The position numbers and the translations under genes were made by a program. The notes below the pieces were generated by a model. That model ran no database searches. It worked only from the letters and a program-made list of their open reading frames with translations, and was not told the origin of the DNA. Below, one piece after another: positions 2,349 through 14,797 of a stretch of 64,000 nucleotides of DNA. Origin of the DNA: an uncultured Pelagibacteraceae bacterium (GTDB lineage: Bacteria; Pseudomonadota; Alphaproteobacteria; Pelagibacterales; Pelagibacteraceae); assembly GCA_902597865.1 (NCBI GenBank), contig CACJZL010000004.1, forward strand, positions 1 through 64,000, read 5' to 3'. Within the stretch, counting starts at the first letter, position 1. Every line of letters starts with the position of its first letter.

Positions 2349-2873
2349 ATGTTTGAATTATATGTCATGAGACATGCAAAATCCAGTTGGGAAGATTTAA
2401 ATATTGATGATTTTGAGAGACCACTCAATAAAAGAGGTAAAAAGAGTGCAAAAAAAATTTGTGAATTTTTTGTTAAAAAAAAGTACAAATTTGATTTTGC
2501 TTTAATATCATCAGCTACAAGAACCCGAAGTACTTTTGAAATTTTATCAAAAGACATTCCTGAGCCAAAAACAATAGAATATTCAAAGAGTTTATACTTG
2601 GCCGATGAGTATGCAATTATAAATAAAATTAAAAAAATATCGAGTAATCACAAATCAATTTTGTTAATAAACCATGAGCCTACAGTTAAAAATTTAGTAA
2701 GATATCTAACAAAAAATCATGAAACCAATAATTTCAAATTAATGAATTATAAATTTCCTACAGCAGCATTCGCCAAAATTAAATTTGATATTAAAGGTTG
2801 GGATGAAATAGAAAAAAAAGGAATGTTAAAAGAATTTATAAGACCCAAAGATCTTCAAGACTCTAAAGAATAG
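2349..2873 (+). CDS. SixA-type histidine phosphatase
   Basis: MFELYVMRHAKSSWED (RHG motif) and INHEPTV; ORF start moved to the ATG at 2349. Confidence 0.85.
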   Translation: MFELYVMRHAKSSWEDLNIDDFERPLNKRGKKSAKKICEFFVKKKYKFDFALISSATRTRSTFEILSKDIPEPKTIEYSKSLYLADEYAIINKIKKISSNHKSILLINHEPTVKNLVRYLTKNHETNNFKLMNYKFPTAAFAKIKFDIKGWDEIEKKGMLKEFIRPKDLQDSKE

Positions 2874-3538
2874 CCAGCCGATCTGACTGTTCTAATTAAA
2901 GGTTTTGTGTTTTCAATGTTTATAGCTTGTCTTAATCTTCTTATGTGTACATCAACCGTTCGTGATTCAACGTATATATTTTCTCCCCACACATTGTTTA
3001 AGAGTTGTTCTCTTGAGTAAACTCTTTTAGGATTTTTGATAAAAAAATCTAACAGTTTAAATTCAGTTGGGCCTAAGTTAATTTCTTTATCTTTTCTATA
3101 AACCCTTTTTGTTACTCTATCTATTCTTAAATCTATAAATTCTACAATATCAGATGAAGATTGTGGTTTAGCTCTTCTTAATAAAGATTTAATTCTTGCA
3201 TTTAATTCCTTTTGACTAAACGGCTTAGTCACATAATCATCCGCACCTGTTTCAAAAGCTTTTAGTTTATCTTCCTCTTCACCCTTGGCAGTTAGCATGA
3301 TAATTGGAATATCATTAAATTTTTTATCTTTCTTTAAGTTTTTACAAATATCAACACCTGATAAATCAGGTAGCATCCAATCCATTAAAATTAAATCTGG
3401 ATGTTTTAATTTAATTTGTTTAAGAGCATCTTCTCCATTTTCGCAATGACTAACTTTGTGACCCTCTTTTTCTAAATTATATTTTAATAAACTTATTATT
3501 GACGTTTCATCCTCAGCTATAAAAACATGAGCTGGCAT
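2855..3538 (-). CDS. phoB: Phosphate regulon response regulator PhoB
   Basis: Receiver domain (DLILMDWMLPDLSGVDIC) plus winged-helix C-terminus (SRTVDVHIRRLRQAI); adjacent to phoU/pst. Confidence 0.93.
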   Translation of the reverse strand: MPAHVFIAEDETSIISLLKYNLEKEGHKVSHCENGEDALKQIKLKHPDLILMDWMLPDLSGVDICKNLKKDKKFNDIPIIMLTAKGEEEDKLKAFETGADDYVTKPFSQKELNARIKSLLRRAKPQSSSDIVEFIDLRIDRVTKRVYRKDKEINLGPTEFKLLDFFIKNPKRVYSREQLLNNVWGENIYVESRTVDVHIRRLRQAINIENTKPLIRTVRSAGYSLES

Positions 3539-3541
3539 AAA

Positions 3542-4249
3542 TTATTTTTCTCCTGTTACAATAGGTTCGCTCCCTTTTGGTCTATCGCCCTCTAAATATT
3601 CACCCTTAACCAAAAAATAAATTTGTTCTGCAACATTTGTTGTATGATCACCAATACGTTCTATGTTTTTAGTAACAAATAATAAATGTGTACCATCACT
3701 TAAATTTTTTTCGGTTTCCTTCAAATATTTAACAACTTCTTGCATACATTCATTTGTTAAATCATCTATTTTCTCGTCCCCCTCCCATACATCTATTGCC
3801 ATAGATGCTGATCTTTCCAAATAGGAGTCAAGTGTAGTTTTTAATTGTTTTTGAACAGATGAAGAAAGTCGAATTAAACAATCAACCAATTTTTTTGGTA
3901 AAGTTTCATTTAACAGAAGAGATCTTTTTGATATATTTTTTGCTAAATCACCTATTCTTTCAAGATCTGATGACATTTTTAAAGCAGTAACTGTTTCTCT
4001 TAAGTCGATTGCCATTGGTTGTCTCAATGCAATTAAATTAACAACTTGTTGTTCGATTAAGCTCTCGAATTTGTCAATTTTTTCATCATCTTTAATAACT
4101 TCTTCTGCATGATCAGCATTTCTGGTAGTAATAGCTACTATGGCTTTTCCCAAAGCTTCTTCACAAGCACTTCCCATTTTAACAATGTTGCTATTTAAAT
4201 TTTTTAACTCTTCCTCATATGATTTAACAGTATGTTGTGTTTCGGCCAT
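3542..4249 (-). CDS. phoU: Phosphate transport system regulatory protein PhoU
   Basis: PhoU helical repeats (DLERIGDLAKNI, NIERIGDHTTNVAEQIYFLV). Confidence 0.95.
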   Translation of the reverse strand: MAETQHTVKSYEEELKNLNSNIVKMGSACEEALGKAIVAITTRNADHAEEVIKDDEKIDKFESLIEQQVVNLIALRQPMAIDLRETVTALKMSSDLERIGDLAKNISKRSLLLNETLPKKLVDCLIRLSSSVQKQLKTTLDSYLERSASMAIDVWEGDEKIDDLTNECMQEVVKYLKETEKNLSDGTHLLFVTKNIERIGDHTTNVAEQIYFLVKGEYLEGDRPKGSEPIVTGEK

Positions 4250-5004
4250 TATCCAAACCTCCCTGTTATATAATCCTGGGTTTTTGTATTATCAGGATTC
4301 TTAAATATTTTATCAGTTGGACCATGTTCTATCAAATGTCCTAGGTGAAAAAAACCTGTATTTTGAGATACTCGTGCAGCTTGAGCCATAGAATGAGTAA
4401 CAATTATTATTGTATGCTCTTTTTTTAACTCATCAATTAATTCCTCAATTTGTGCAGTTGCTATTGGATCTAATGCTGAACAAGGCTCATCCATTAATAT
4501 AACTTCAGGTCTTACAGAAATTGCTCTTGCGATACAAAGTCTTTGTTGTTGTCCTCCAGATAATCCAGTTCCGGGCTCATGCAATCTATCTTTTACCTCT
4601 TCCCATAATGCAGCCTTTTTTAAACTAGTTTCAACAATCTCATCCATTTCTTGTTTTGATTGAGCCATACCATGGATTGTCGGTCCATAGGATACGTTTT
4701 CATATAAAGTTTTTGGGAAAGGATTAGGTTTTTGAAAAACCATTCCAATTTTTTCTCTGAGTCTTACCACATCACAACTTTTATCATTTATATTAAAGTC
4801 ATTAATTAGAATTTCTCCTTTAACATTACAGATATCAATTACATCGTTCATTCTATTAAGACATCTAAGAAAAGTTGATTTACCACAACCAGATGGACCA
4901 ATTAATGCTGTTACTTGATTTTCTTCAATATCTAAACTTATGTTATAGAGAGCTTGTTTTTTTCCGTAAAAAACATCCACATCTTTTGCTTTAATCTTTA
5001 TCAT
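4249..5004 (-). CDS. pstB: Phosphate ABC transporter ATP-binding protein PstB
   Basis: Walker [29 protein letters not shown], signature [14 protein letters not shown]; start likely [14 protein letters not shown]. Confidence 0.95.
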
Positions 5005-8840: not shown

Positions 8841-8858
8841 ATTACAGAAATGTTACAG
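8841..8858 (-). promoter_or_regulatory. Pho box upstream of pstS
   Basis: Minus strand CTGTAAC-ATTT-CTGTAAT: two 7-bp direct repeats with 11-bp periodicity, 67 bp upstream of the pstS start. Confidence 0.88.
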
Positions 8859-8879
8859 TTTTGTAAAAAAACTAACTTT

Positions 8880-9488
8880 TTAGTTGTACTTCATAGAGAT
8901 TATAATCTCTTCATTTTCTGTTTCAAGACCACCTTTGCAGGAAACAGGGTTAACATTTTCCTTAAAGGCTAATTCTGTAGTAGGTCTTAGAATAACTTCT
9001 AATTTTACTAAATTTACCAATTCCTCTAGAGCACTTTGATCATAACGCCATCTTGGCCAATTACTTGGAGTAGAGAAAATCGATGTTAAGTAGCTCGTTG
9101 CCATAGTAAACCGATAATTACTTAAATTTTCATTTCTTAATAAATGGTCTCTGACTGAATTAAATATATTTCTACATTTAAAAGAGTCAGACATATAATT
9201 TTCCTCTTTTAAATTTTTGTTAACTGGAATTGAAACAATTAAGTCAACAGTATTTTTCCAAAAAGAACTTACAACATCGATGTAAATATCCTCATAAGGT
9301 ATATCCTTATGTTTTTTAATTGCTGGATAAGTACTTTTTAAATCTTCCTTTAATCTAAAAATACCAATATCAAAGACAGTAAGTTGCTGGTTTCTTAATA
9401 AAGTTGTCATGTCTTGTGAAAAAACATTACTAATGATTAGTAAATGCAGTGTAAGAAAAATTAAAATATTTTTTAATATTTTAACCAT
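8880..9488 (-). CDS. Hypothetical secreted/periplasmic protein inside the Pho cluster
   Basis: From MVKILKNILIFLTLHLLIISNVFSQ: N-terminal signal-peptide-like segment then a soluble domain; no family recognised. Confidence 0.75.
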   Translation of the reverse strand: MVKILKNILIFLTLHLLIISNVFSQDMTTLLRNQQLTVFDIGIFRLKEDLKSTYPAIKKHKDIPYEDIYIDVVSSFWKNTVDLIVSIPVNKNLKEENYMSDSFKCRNIFNSVRDHLLRNENLSNYRFTMATSYLTSIFSTPSNWPRWRYDQSALEELVNLVKLEVILRPTTELAFKENVNPVSCKGGLETENEEIIISMKYN

Positions 9489-9520
9489 ATCTAAGTTTAA
9501 TAAATTTGTAATATTAATCA

Positions 9521-9538
9521 ATAAGAGAAATGTTAAAA
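9521..9538 (-). promoter_or_regulatory. Candidate degenerate Pho box upstream of the secreted protein
   Basis: Minus strand TTTTAACATTTCTCTTAT matches the pstS box CTGTAACATTTCTGTAAT at 14/18 positions with the same spacing; AT-rich background makes this tentative. Confidence 0.4.
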
Positions 9539-9572: not shown

Positions 9573-10721
9573 TTAATTTTGATTTGATGGTAAAAAAATT
9601 TTGATTTCAGTACCATTATTTTCCTTAGATAGAATCTCAAAATCACCTCTGTGCTGAGTTACGATGTGTTTCATTATTGCTAAACCTAAACCAGTACCAC
9701 CAGTTTTATTACTTTGTTCGATATCTACACGAAAGAATCTTTCAGTTACGCGAGAAATATATTTTTGAGGAATACCAACACCTTCATCTCTAATGCTTAT
9801 CATCATACTTTTTTCAATTAGCTTTCCATAGTTTTCTTTGTTGGTGATATATATATTTTTATTTTCAGGTGAGTATTTAATTGCATTATCCAAAAGATTT
9901 GAAAAAACTGTATTTAATTTTTTTTCGTCACCTAAAACAGTTGAATTATCTAAAATTTTATTTTTGACTGTAATTTTTTTTTTTTTCAAGACTATCTCAA
10001 AGTTGCTTATTATTTCTTTAAAAATTTTATTTATGCTCACTGATTTTGTGGGCCTGATATGCTCTTCAAGCTCAATTCTTGCCAAGATTAAAAGATCATT
10101 TATAAGATTTTCCATTCTGCTTGATTGATCATTCAAAATTTTCATAAATTTTTTTTTAGCCTTTTCATCATCAGAGGCAGGTCCTTGGATGGTCTCTAAA
10201 GATCCTTTGATGGCCATTAACGGTGTTCTTAATTCATGGCTAACATTTGCTACAAAATCACTTTTGAATTTTTGTGCTTTTGTAATTTCAGTAAAGTCTT
10301 TTAAGAATAATACCACAGAGTCTGGCTCTGGAAATAAATGCGTTGGACCTGGGATTATATAAATTTTATAAAATTGATATGATGGTAAATCTATTTCGAC
10401 ATTGATATTAATTGTCCTGTTTTCACTAATTGCTTTCTCAATACTTTCTAATAATTCATTCTTTCGAATAATTGAGGATATATTTTTATCAATTAAACTT
10501 CTTCCAAACCTTTTTAACGCGCTTGGGTTTGCATATTTTATTGAATTAAACTTATCTAAAGCAAAAAATTGGTCCTCGAGTTCATCTATAATTACTCTTT
10601 TGGTTTTTTCCTCCCTTTTATTAACTATAGGTGCAATATTAACTGGTTTATCATTTTTTTTGTTCAGTAAATATAATAAATAAACTACAACAACAATAAG
10701 TAGAAAAATAATGTACTCCAT
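9573..10721 (-). CDS. phoR: Phosphate regulon sensor histidine kinase PhoR
   Basis: Single N-terminal TM, PAS-like region, FVANVSHELRTPLMAIKG H-box, N/G boxes (LDNAIKYSPENKN, DEGVGIPQKY, GGTGLGLAIMKHI). Confidence 0.9.
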   Translation of the reverse strand: MEYIIFLLIVVVVYLLYLLNKKNDKPVNIAPIVNKREEKTKRVIIDELEDQFFALDKFNSIKYANPSALKRFGRSLIDKNISSIIRKNELLESIEKAISENRTININVEIDLPSYQFYKIYIIPGPTHLFPEPDSVVLFLKDFTEITKAQKFKSDFVANVSHELRTPLMAIKGSLETIQGPASDDEKAKKKFMKILNDQSSRMENLINDLLILARIELEEHIRPTKSVSINKIFKEIISNFEIVLKKKKITVKNKILDNSTVLGDEKKLNTVFSNLLDNAIKYSPENKNIYITNKENYGKLIEKSMMISIRDEGVGIPQKYISRVTERFFRVDIEQSNKTGGTGLGLAIMKHIVTQHRGDFEILSKENNGTEIKIFLPSNQN

Positions 10722-10771: not shown

Positions 10772-11794
10772 TTAAGAATTAATTTCTTTCGAATTTGGGT
10801 AAATATTATCGTAAAATATCCTTGCTGTTTCCTCCCAAGTAAATTTTTTAGCAAATTCTAAACAATCACCTCTATTTACTTTTAAGGCTTTGTGCGCTGA
10901 AATTTTTAAATCATTATCCAAACAATTAATTTTTGAACCTTCAAATATATCTTTTGGTCCAGGTACTGGGTAAGCAGCAACTGGAGTTCCACAATTTAAT
11001 GACTCGCAAACGACAATTCCAAATGTGTCGGTTTTACTTGGAAATACAAAAACGTCTGCTGATGCAAAGTGAGATGCTAATTCACCATTTGTTTTTTCAC
11101 CTAAAAATATATCCCTGGGGAATTCTTTTTTTAATTTCTTTAAATCCGGACCTTTACCTATTATCAATTTTGTGCCTTCTAAATCACACTCTAAAAAAGC
11201 TCTAATATTTTTCTCTACAGCAACACGTCCAACATAAATCCATATTGGTCTTTTATGTGGTAAATCAATTTTTTTGGGATTTTTAAAAGCTCCATGGTTT
11301 CCGCCTCTAGTCCATGTCACCATTTTTTTATTGTCTATACCAATATCAATTAATTCATTTCTCATAGACTCTGTGGTAACTAGAATTCTTTCTGCTTTAT
11401 TATGAAAACTTGCTAAAAATTTTTCTGCCCATTTAGATGGAATGATTGGAAAATATAATTTTAGATATTTATCAAATCTAGTATGAAAGCTGGTAGTAAA
11501 TTTGAGATTATTTTTAATGCAATATCTTCTTGCCATAGTTCCAATTGGACCTTCGGTTGCTATATGAATAGCGTCTGGTTTGATTTTTTCTATTAGATTT
11601 CCAACTCTAGGCCAGACATTAATCGAAAGTCTTATTTCGTTATATTTAGGCATAGGAAATGTTAAAAATAAATCTGGAGTGATATATTCTACTAAATGAC
11701 CCTGTTCTTTCAAAACTTGACCTGTTTCATGGAGAGTTCTTACAACACCGTTAACTTGAGGAAAATATGCATCCGTCGCAATTAAGATTTTCAT
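10772..11794 (-). CDS. agt: GT4-type glycosyltransferase, probable Agt-like glycolipid synthase partner of PlcP
   Basis: MKILIATDAYFPQVNGVVRTLHETGQVL, TSFHTRFDKYLK, VFPSKTDTFGIVVCESLNCGTPVAAYPVPGP; adjacent to the PlcP-like gene in a Pho cluster. Confidence 0.75.
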   Translation of the reverse strand: MKILIATDAYFPQVNGVVRTLHETGQVLKEQGHLVEYITPDLFLTFPMPKYNEIRLSINVWPRVGNLIEKIKPDAIHIATEGPIGTMARRYCIKNNLKFTTSFHTRFDKYLKLYFPIIPSKWAEKFLASFHNKAERILVTTESMRNELIDIGIDNKKMVTWTRGGNHGAFKNPKKIDLPHKRPIWIYVGRVAVEKNIRAFLECDLEGTKLIIGKGPDLKKLKKEFPRDIFLGEKTNGELASHFASADVFVFPSKTDTFGIVVCESLNCGTPVAAYPVPGPKDIFEGSKINCLDNDLKISAHKALKVNRGDCLEFAKKFTWEETARIFYDNIYPNSKEINS

Positions 11795-11796
11795 TT

Positions 11797-12618
11797 TTAA
11801 GATGCTTTTTTTAGATTTTTTGTTTCTAAAATATTTGAAATTTCGTCTTTATCTAAATATTTATCCCTTATTTTATCCCAATAAATAATTTCGAACTTTC
11901 CGTTGTAATTTTCTACTAATGCGGTGCATGACTCAACCCAATCACCGCAATTTAAATAATTTATTCCATTGAATTCTTGATCTTCCGCATGATGAATATG
12001 GCCACAAATTATTCCATCATATTTTTTGCTTTTTGCATAATCTGAAAGTGTTTTTTCATATTCACCGATATATTTTACTGCATTTTTAACTTTATATTTT
12101 AAGAATTTTGCAAGAGACCAGTACTCTTTACCTCTTAATTTTCTAAAGAAATTTATAATCACATTAATTCGTAGTAATAAATTATAAGCAACAGATCCAA
12201 TTTTAGATAACCATTTAGCGTGTTTCATCACTCCATCCCACGCATCACCATGTACGACTAGATATTTTTTTCCTAAACTTGTTTCGTGAACAATTCTATT
12301 TAACAAGTGTATATCACCAAAATTCATAGGAATAAATTTCCTAAACAATTCATCATGATTGCCTGTTATGTAGAAAACTTTAGTACCATGTCTTGCTTTT
12401 CTTAATATTTTTTGAATTACGTCATTATGTTCTTGGGGCCAATAAAAATTTTTTTGCATCGCCCAAACATCAACAATATCACCAACAAGATAAAGATTTT
12501 CTGATCTAGAGTTTTTGAAAAATTCTAGAATCTTATTTGCCTGACATCCTTTTGTTCCAAGATGTAAATCTGAAATAAATATACTTTTATACTTTAGTAA
12601 AGGTGGTTTATTTTTCAT
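11797..12618 (-). CDS. plcP: Metallophosphoesterase, probable PlcP-type phospholipase C (LpxH-like fold)
   Basis: ISDLHLGTKGCQA, LVGDIVDVWAMQKNFYWPQEHNDV, YITGNHDE, VHGDAWDG, ICGHIHHAE motifs; a separate lpxI in this window makes an LpxH role less likely. Confidence 0.75.
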   Translation of the reverse strand: MKNKPPLLKYKSIFISDLHLGTKGCQANKILEFFKNSRSENLYLVGDIVDVWAMQKNFYWPQEHNDVIQKILRKARHGTKVFYITGNHDELFRKFIPMNFGDIHLLNRIVHETSLGKKYLVVHGDAWDGVMKHAKWLSKIGSVAYNLLLRINVIINFFRKLRGKEYWSLAKFLKYKVKNAVKYIGEYEKTLSDYAKSKKYDGIICGHIHHAEDQEFNGINYLNCGDWVESCTALVENYNGKFEIIYWDKIRDKYLDKDEISNILETKNLKKAS

Positions 12619-12682
12619 ATAATCTTGTTTTTTTTTTTGATTCGCTTATAAGTAGAATCATAATTATCTTGTACATATTTAT

Positions 12683-12700
12683 GTTACAGAATTATTAAAT
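12683..12700 (-). promoter_or_regulatory. Candidate Pho box between plcP and the DAG-kinase gene
   Basis: Minus strand ATTTAATAATTCTGTAAC matches the pstS box at 13/18 and lies 65 bp upstream of the plcP start (pstS: 67 bp); one half-site strong, one weak. Confidence 0.4.
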
Positions 12701-12701
12701 T

Positions 12702-13592
12702 ATGAAATTTTGTTTGATATATAACAAAAAATCCGCGGGGGGAAGAAAGTCAAATTTTATTAAAAAGATTGTTTATGAAATTCGAAGACAACATCGGGTT
12801 GATTTTTTTGAGACAGAAAGTGAGTATCAAGCTTCAGAAATAATAAAAAATCTCACAAAACATCAATATAACAGATTATTATTAGCTGGTGGGGATGGAT
12901 CAGTTTCATTTGCAATTAACGAACTTATAAAAAATAATTTTAATTTTAATAAAAATTTTGCAATTGGGTATATTCCAGCAGGAACGGCCAATATTCTACA
13001 AGCTGAATTAGGTATGTCTAAAAACATTAAACAAATTGCGAAAACATTAACCTCAAATAATTTTAATAAATCTAATTTAATGAAAATAAATGAAAAACAT
13101 TTTGTTTTGATGGCAGGATTAGGATGGGATGCTCAAATAGTTCAATCAATTAATTCTTCAATTAAAAAAATAATGGGAAAATTAATATTTGGCATCAAAG
13201 GTTTACAAAAATTTTTATTTATGAAAAATAAAAAAATCAAAATATTAATCAATAATGAAACTTATTATGCAGATTGGATACTATGTACAAATAGCAAATA
13301 TTATGCGGGACATCATTCTATAGCAAAAACAAATATTTTTGATGATAAAGTTGTCACCTATATCTTTGAAAACTTAAATCGATTAAAATTATTATATTAC
13401 ATATATTTAGTGGCTATTTATGGTAATTTGGAAAAATCAAAATCAGTGATTATAAAATATGATGATAATATTAAATTTGATGGTATGAATAGTAAAATAC
13501 CAGTACAAATAGATGGTGACAATTTTGGTAATTTCAAAGAAGTTTTAATTTCAAAATCGGAAAAAAAAATAAATATATTAAAGTCCGGCTAA
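12702..13592 (+). CDS. Diacylglycerol kinase family lipid kinase
   Basis: DAGK catalytic motifs: LLLAGGDGSVSFAINEL, IGYIPAGTANILQAELG; VQIDGDNFG near the C-terminus. Confidence 0.85.
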   Translation: MKFCLIYNKKSAGGRKSNFIKKIVYEIRRQHRVDFFETESEYQASEIIKNLTKHQYNRLLLAGGDGSVSFAINELIKNNFNFNKNFAIGYIPAGTANILQAELGMSKNIKQIAKTLTSNNFNKSNLMKINEKHFVLMAGLGWDAQIVQSINSSIKKIMGKLIFGIKGLQKFLFMKNKKIKILINNETYYADWILCTNSKYYAGHHSIAKTNIFDDKVVTYIFENLNRLKLLYYIYLVAIYGNLEKSKSVIIKYDDNIKFDGMNSKIPVQIDGDNFGNFKEVLISKSEKKINILKSG

Positions 13593-13594
13593 TA

Positions 13595-14797
13595 CTATTT
13601 TACCCTACCGTATACATCCTGATATCTAACAATATCTGTTTCTTTAAGGATTGAGCCTATTTGTGCTTCTATAATTTTTACCGGTTTTTTAAATGGATTT
13701 TCAATTCTATGAACAGCTCCTAATGGAATATAAATAGTTTCACCAGGTTTCTTTAAGAATTTACTTTTATTTAGAGTAATTCTTGGAATTCCATGAGTAA
13801 CTACCCAGTGTTCTGCTCTATGGAAATGTTTTTGAAGACTTAAAATACCTTTAGATTTCACATACAATTCTTTAATTAAGAATTCTTTGCCTTTAAATAA
13901 GTTTGTGTAGCTGCCCCATGGTCTATAAAATACGTTTTTCTTTTTAAAATATCTATTTTTAATCTTTCCGTACATTTTGCAGATTTCTTTCCAGCTCCCT
14001 AGATCTGACCATGGAATATCAAGTTTGATCGCATTGATATTTTTAGTTTTCTCTAGTATCGCATAATCAAACGATTTTGCTGTAGCTTTAGAAAATGCTT
14101 GTTTGTTTAAATAATACACATTGCTTTTATATTTAGCTTTTATTACAGCTTTGTTACAGTTTCGAAAAATATTAGGCTGATATTTCTTAAAATTATTAAT
14201 AATTGAGTCTTTTCTCAAAAAAAACATCCCAGAATTCCAATAACCCTTTTGTTTAATTACTTGCTTTGCCTTTGATACTTTTGGTTTTTCAATAAATCTA
14301 GTGACTTTATTAATGTTCTTTTTTTTCTTGGTAATGAAATATCCATACTCACTAGAAGGACTTGTTGGTTTTATTCCAAATATAAATACGTTTTTCTCGT
14401 CTAAATTTGACTTATTTTTATTAATAGCTGTGATTAGTTTATTTGGTTTTTCAATTAAATGATCTGCAGCAAAATACATTAAAGGCTGGTTATATGGGAC
14501 GTCTTTAATCAGTGCTGATGCTAAAATTGCTGGAGCAGTATTCTTTTTTGCTGGCTCTAAAATAATCTTGTATTTTTTAATTTTACTTTTCTTTAAAGCC
14601 TTTTTTACATCCCTAAGATATTTTGAATTAGTGCTAATAATTGGATAGTCAAAAACTTTACTTTTAACTCTTTCAAAAGTTTTGTTAATTAAAGTCCAAC
14701 CACCAAAATCTATGAACTGTTTTGCTTGATGTTTAGATTTTTTAGGCCACAGTCTAGTACCTGCTCCTCCGCATAGAATAACTGGTCTAATTTTCAT
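13595..14797 (-). CDS. manC: Mannose-1-phosphate guanylyltransferase (GDP), type II-like with cupin C-terminus
   Basis: VILCGGAGTRLWPKKSKHQAKQF, FIEKPK, WNSGMFFLR, RPWGSYTNLF...LQKHFHRAEHWVV. Confidence 0.88.
   Translation of the reverse strand: MKIRPVILCGGAGTRLWPKKSKHQAKQFIDFGGWTLINKTFERVKSKVFDYPIISTNSKYLRDVKKALKKSKIKKYKIILEPAKKNTAPAILASALIKDVPYNQPLMYFAADHLIEKPNKLITAINKNKSNLDEKNVFIFGIKPTSPSSEYGYFITKKKKNINKVTRFIEKPKVSKAKQVIKQKGYWNSGMFFLRKDSIINNFKKYQPNIFRNCNKAVIKAKYKSNVYYLNKQAFSKATAKSFDYAILEKTKNINAIKLDIPWSDLGSWKEICKMYGKIKNRYFKKKNVFYRPWGSYTNLFKGKEFLIKELYVKSKGILSLQKHFHRAEHWVVTHGIPRITLNKSKFLKKPGETIYIPLGAVHRIENPFKKPVKIIEAQIGSILKETDIVRYQDVYGRVK

Follow-up and report, generated by a model that had tools for sequence, protein, structure and literature searches.

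SAR11 bacteria are among the most abundant in the sea and spare phosphorus by remodelling their lipids. Carini et al. reportedly observed upregulation of a four-gene cluster in strain HTCC7211 during phosphate starvation. Putative Pho boxes at the plcP clusters of marine heterotrophic bacteria have already been reported by Sebastian et al. (PMC4796936), and the system described there resembles the present locus in its putative PhoB sites and in the SAR11 order of plcP followed by agt; unlike here, a diacylglycerol (DAG) kinase goes unmentioned in the main text of that study, as searched. SAR11 PlcP complements a plcP mutant of Phaeobacter (PMC4796936), and the products of SAR11 Agt are glucosyl- and glucuronosyl-DAG (PMC4796936, PMC8231724). 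Among the SAR11 genomes compared in another work (PMC3686209), HTCC7211 alone had genes for a DAG kinase and a metallophosphoesterase, and these were over-represented, along with phosphonate genes, at one oligotrophic site. In Pseudomonas putida BIRD-1, Pi depletion enriches DagK as well as PlcP, a response described as PHO-dependent (PMC5082522); both enzymes thus take part in the phosphate-starvation response there, although the organism and its lipid products are different and the likeness covers the enzyme response alone. The comparison presented here places the lipid kinase gene dgk inside the phosphate-starvation module of plcP, in which one clade appears to have gained a second box and, with it, a symmetric divergent promoter.

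Gene order and the site facing plcP

The window, meaning the whole stretch of 64,000 nucleotides analysed, carries on its minus strand the gene order plcP-agt-phoR-orf-pstS-pstC-pstA-pstB-phoU-phoB, with the pst and phoU names taken partly from translations. The dgk gene is divergent from plcP, across a gap of 83 bp. The features concerned are the following.

12702 to 13592, plus strand: dgk, DAGK_cat / YegS-type lipid kinase (PF00781 DAGK_cat, 1.2e-21)
12683 to 12700, minus strand: predicted Pho box facing plcP, half-sites ATTTAAT-AATT-CTGTAAC, 11-bp repeat (matrix score 14.03)
12639 to 12659, no strand given: two GANTC sites (GATTC and GAATC on the plus strand) between the box and plcP
11797 to 12618, minus strand: plcP, metallophosphoesterase (phospholipase C-like PlcP; Pfam Metallophos, 5e-12)
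10772 to 11794, minus strand: agt, glycosyltransferase (Pfam), starting 2 bp past plcP
9573 to 10721, minus strand: phoR-like sensor kinase downstream of agt (Pfam; NCBIfam phoR_proteo, 1.6e-83, 280.5 bits, under the curated cut-off)
8841 to 8869, minus strand: predicted pstS Pho box, three tandem half-sites TTTTTAC-AAAA-CTGTAAC-ATTT-CTGTAAT
2855 to 3538, minus strand: phoB, response regulator expected to bind the Pho box (NCBIfam TIGR02154 PhoB, 326 bits, exceeding the cut-off of 296)

The window derives from a SAR11 (Pelagibacteraceae) genome, a homology search giving single-cell genomes of this family as the closest named relatives of plcP, at 99% identity; agt and plcP are likely to form one operon. 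The translation of dgk matches the DAGK_cat family profile and contains the GGDGS motif; it falls short of the cut-off in all NCBIfam models matched, its nearest solved structure is DgkB (2qv7), and its presumed substrate, DAG, is assigned from the family alone. Both genes whose presence is expected alongside a Pho box are found in the window, phoB and, below the curated phoR_proteo cut-off, the phoR-like kinase. The gene at 8880-9521 (minus strand), between phoR and pstS, is conserved and has no Pfam or NCBIfam match.

Read on the minus strand from 12700 to 12683, the site facing plcP is ATTTAATAATTCTGTAAC, identical at 13/18 positions to the pstS box CTGTAACATTTCTGTAAT (8841-8858, minus strand), and its sequence, strand, coordinates and identity to the pstS box all reproduced what an earlier note on this DNA had described. 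The near-equal distances to the two start codons claimed in that note also held, although we measured 64 bp for plcP and 66 bp for pstS where it had 65 and 67. As it had stated, the 18-mer all but reaches the dgk ATG (12702), with the single base 12701 in between. Besides a similar start-codon distance, the two boxes share 11-bp direct-repeat half-sites and membership of the same gene cluster. The pstS box has three half-sites, whereas the plcP box has two, the upstream one (ATTTAAT) being weak and degenerate in the window's clade.

Identity at 13/18 positions is weak evidence and not above chance, because 29 window positions match the pstS box at no fewer than 13 of its 18 positions. Occurrences of the consensus counted genome-wide, allowing as many as three mismatches, likewise showed no excess over a reversed-pattern control, and raw match counting of either kind was rejected as proof, the site being inseparable from background in this way. 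Even though these counts speak for a chance match in AT-rich intergenic DNA, such an origin is highly improbable: the half-sites recur across the family at a fixed spacing while their flanks diverge, and the comparative data already contradict it. Since the identity is not unusual by itself, a half-site matrix was trained exclusively on pstS promoters (57 unique upstream sequences, with an effective number of about 10), which contain three 11-bp-spaced half-sites, for example TTTTAAC-AAAA-CTGTAAC-AATT-CTGTAAT. The plcP site scored 14.03 with this matrix, ranking 5 of 127,966 window positions (P = 0.003 per 100 bp of simulated intergenic DNA, counting both strands), and its two half-sites of about 7 bp at an 11-bp period resemble the pstS sites beyond chance.

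A perfect Pho-box-like sequence, CTGTAACAAAGCTGTAAT, lies at 14142-14159 (minus strand) inside a mannose-1-phosphate guanylyltransferase gene and scores as high as pstS; it is probably an inert intragenic match.

Conservation of the plcP box

The comparison took in about 110 plcP loci fetched by homology and a further 20, largely of other genera, and the divergent dgk/plcP-agt order is retained in most of them. The family box TTTTAAC-N4-(C/T)TGTAAC is kept before plcP in genera g1, g2, g4, g5, g7, g9 and g12, at a steady distance from plcP across relatives. Mean information in 20 family-wide representatives was 1.43 bits for half-site columns, against 0.38 upstream and 0.58 downstream, and we regard this family-wide conservation as the decisive evidence that the predicted Pho box is real. 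Within the window's clade alone, 4/18 columns vary in the box against 30/67 elsewhere in the gap (P = 0.07), an only marginal advantage. Preferential conservation of the 18-mer over its flanks, which the earlier note had made a touchstone of its proposal, thus holds for the half-sites across the family and only marginally in the window's own clade.

The box is equally conserved before plcP genes that have no dgk upstream (L125, L126 and L128), and therefore belongs to plcP. The upstream neighbour of plcP in L126 and L128 encodes a CPBP-like membrane protein, as read from translations. Together with the score from the pstS-trained matrix, the family-wide half-sites and the steady distance to plcP make a PhoB-driven plcP-agt promoter at the 18-mer a well-supported prediction, and to this extent the activating half of the earlier proposal stands.

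The L125 locus (3477-4543) shows plcP divergent from arsenate-reductase-like and aquaporin-like genes, without dgk, the genes again being read from translations.

Association of dgk with plcP and a mirror-image box in the sister clade

The other half of that proposal was a reciprocal switch, in which PhoB on this one box would activate plcP-agt and at the same time occlude the promoter or leader of dgk, sending DAG to glycolipid. The geometry of the gap is consistent with it: with the box ending next to the dgk start codon, a dgk promoter within the 83 bp must overlap the box or lie just upstream, and the box of genus g4 is likewise just a few bp from the dgk start. The window's clade also has no dgk-facing Pho box, the best site in that direction within the gap scoring 0.7. 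However, retention of the box position where dgk is missing argues against this model, and so does a consensus promoter scan, in which the one weak match in the dgk direction, no more than in shuffled sequence, puts the box downstream of the start site. The position of the box beside the dgk start codon is probably a by-product of the short intergenic gap.

The distribution of the two genes also speaks against opposition, as the presence of dgk follows that of plcP. Both genes were found in 81 of the 196 family genomes and neither in 100, while 6 had plcP only and 9 had dgk only (Fisher P 1e-36, with genomes treated as independent and relatedness not corrected for); in 4 of the 6 plcP-only genomes the locus is at, or cut by, a contig end. 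All 28 genomes of genus g1 with plcP gave a dgk match, one of them weak (G172, E 6e-4); the 20 listed g1 genomes lacking plcP gave no dgk match, although several carry pstS. Where dgk is away from plcP it is divergent from pstS in g12 (L188, and L192 as judged by upstream sequence) and from a phoR-like gene in g5 (L185-L187, L189 and L190).

The clade sister to the window's joins, in a single gap, the same plcP-facing box and a strong dgk-facing box on the opposite strand. The latter was present in 59/59 distinct loci of this clade and in 0/31 of the other loci, mostly as TTTTAAC/TTTTAAT/TTGTAAC-ACAA-CTGTAAC with scores of 14-20. The spacing between the two boxes is exactly 31 bp in all sister-clade loci except L028, whose best plcP-facing match is in another register and whose dgk box has a different spacer (AATA) with the half-sites retained. 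Loci of the L022 and L030 groups score higher at the dgk-facing box (20.0) than at the plcP-facing one (10.6-13.6). A single change on the tree accounts for the dgk-facing box (FastTree branch support 99), and its gain in the sister clade is the simplest reading because the outgroups are without it. We found no description of a mirror box facing a divergent kinase in the literature searched.

Genome-wide, G113 has 11 matches to the box pattern, 8 of them inside genes; of the 3 outside genes, one is at pstS and the other two are the boxes facing plcP and dgk, the latter 67 bp ahead of dgk. Given a dedicated dgk-facing box and these intergenic matches, PhoB should activate dgk together with plcP in the sister clade. 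In G035, a box-pattern match outside genes lies 44 bp before a gene for a small protein of 103 aa (L217, about 1456-1518), possibly an unknown Pho gene.

Because dgk is gained and lost with plcP and has its own mirror Pho box in the sister clade, it is best placed in the same phosphate-starvation module as plcP and not in an opposing one. The joint rise of DagK and PlcP in P. putida (PMC5082522) and the over-representation of the two HTCC7211 genes (PMC3686209) agree with this placing. The architecture that opposition between plcP and dgk would lead one to expect is not kept in relatives, where the sister clade has a Pho box facing dgk instead. Nothing positive was found for a block of dgk by PhoB, and the retention of the box without dgk, the co-occurrence of the genes, the sister-clade box and the co-induction of DagK in P. 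putida (PMC5082522) all count against it. The reciprocal switch is therefore unlikely as a whole. Occlusion of dgk by PhoB in the window's clade is possible, since the gap leaves a dgk promoter no place except on or beside the box, but unsupported.

PhoB on the single box might instead activate plcP and dgk alike in the window's clade. Such bidirectional use is favoured by dgk belonging to the module and by the predicted co-activation through the mirror box of the sister clade, but Pho boxes are directional direct repeats and dgk-facing sites here score 0.7 at most, so we consider it quite unlikely. It is only by analogy that dgk of the window's clade may be assigned to the PhoB regulon, because it has no Pho box there. 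A combined arrangement, with control of opposite sign in sister clades, would pair occlusion in single-box genomes (the window and G035) with activation from the mirror box; we think it unlikely to hold but, if true, lipid remodelling would have been rewired by the gain of one 18-bp site.

The explanation that we favour, and hold to be probable as a whole, is that the PhoB box drives plcP-agt, with dgk in the same module and expressed at a basal level in the window's clade. When phosphate is scarce, phosphorylated PhoB would bind the two 11-bp-spaced half-sites at 12683-12700 and activate plcP-agt, perhaps phoR too, whose products would convert phospholipid to diacylglycerol and this to glycolipid. 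The dgk product would send part of the released DAG back to phosphatidic acid, acting as a partner and not an opponent of plcP. PhoB in the sister clade should activate both directions from the paired boxes; in the window's clade, where dgk is without its own Pho box, basal expression of the gene is most likely. For the sister clade, the predicted split of DAG between glycolipid and phospholipid is thus of opposite sign to that of the earlier note.

Other sequence elements of the plcP leader

A sigma-70 scan of 12500-12800 gave two promoter-like matches, which does not exceed the number in shuffled sequence. Two further candidates in the plcP leader were rejected. The inverted repeat of a conserved hairpin (TGATTC...GAATCA, 12638-12660) is broken in L010-type relatives, and a short upstream reading frame from a conserved ATGATTC varies between genera, by eye, both in its frame relative to plcP and in its stop. 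The plcP leaders of the 20 representatives almost invariably have an ATG trinucleotide at +6 to +8, starting 6 nt past the Pho box.

GANTC is the recognition site of CcrM, and SAR11 relatives carry a CcrM-like methylase and GcrA. The box-proximal GANTC site of the window corresponds to a family-wide GATTC position that nearly all promoters have 23-27 nt past the plcP box, and GANTC is present in 13/13 sequence clusters; the L010 group has lost GATTC and only the more distal GAATC remains. Many pstS promoters of g1 and related loci have GANTC at +6 and +24, where the middle base varies. As a universal mark of Pho promoters GANTC was rejected, being absent near the pattern match before a phosphonatase-like gene in G035. 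Pelagibacter GANTC sites are methylated (PMC9516812). Downstream of these Pho boxes GANTC recurs at fixed offsets, +8 and +24 to +27 for plcP, in the window (12639, 12655 and, for pstS, 8812) and in L036, L119, L041 and others. Outside tRNA genes the window has only 5 intergenic GANTC sites, 3 of which are in the plcP and pstS promoters.
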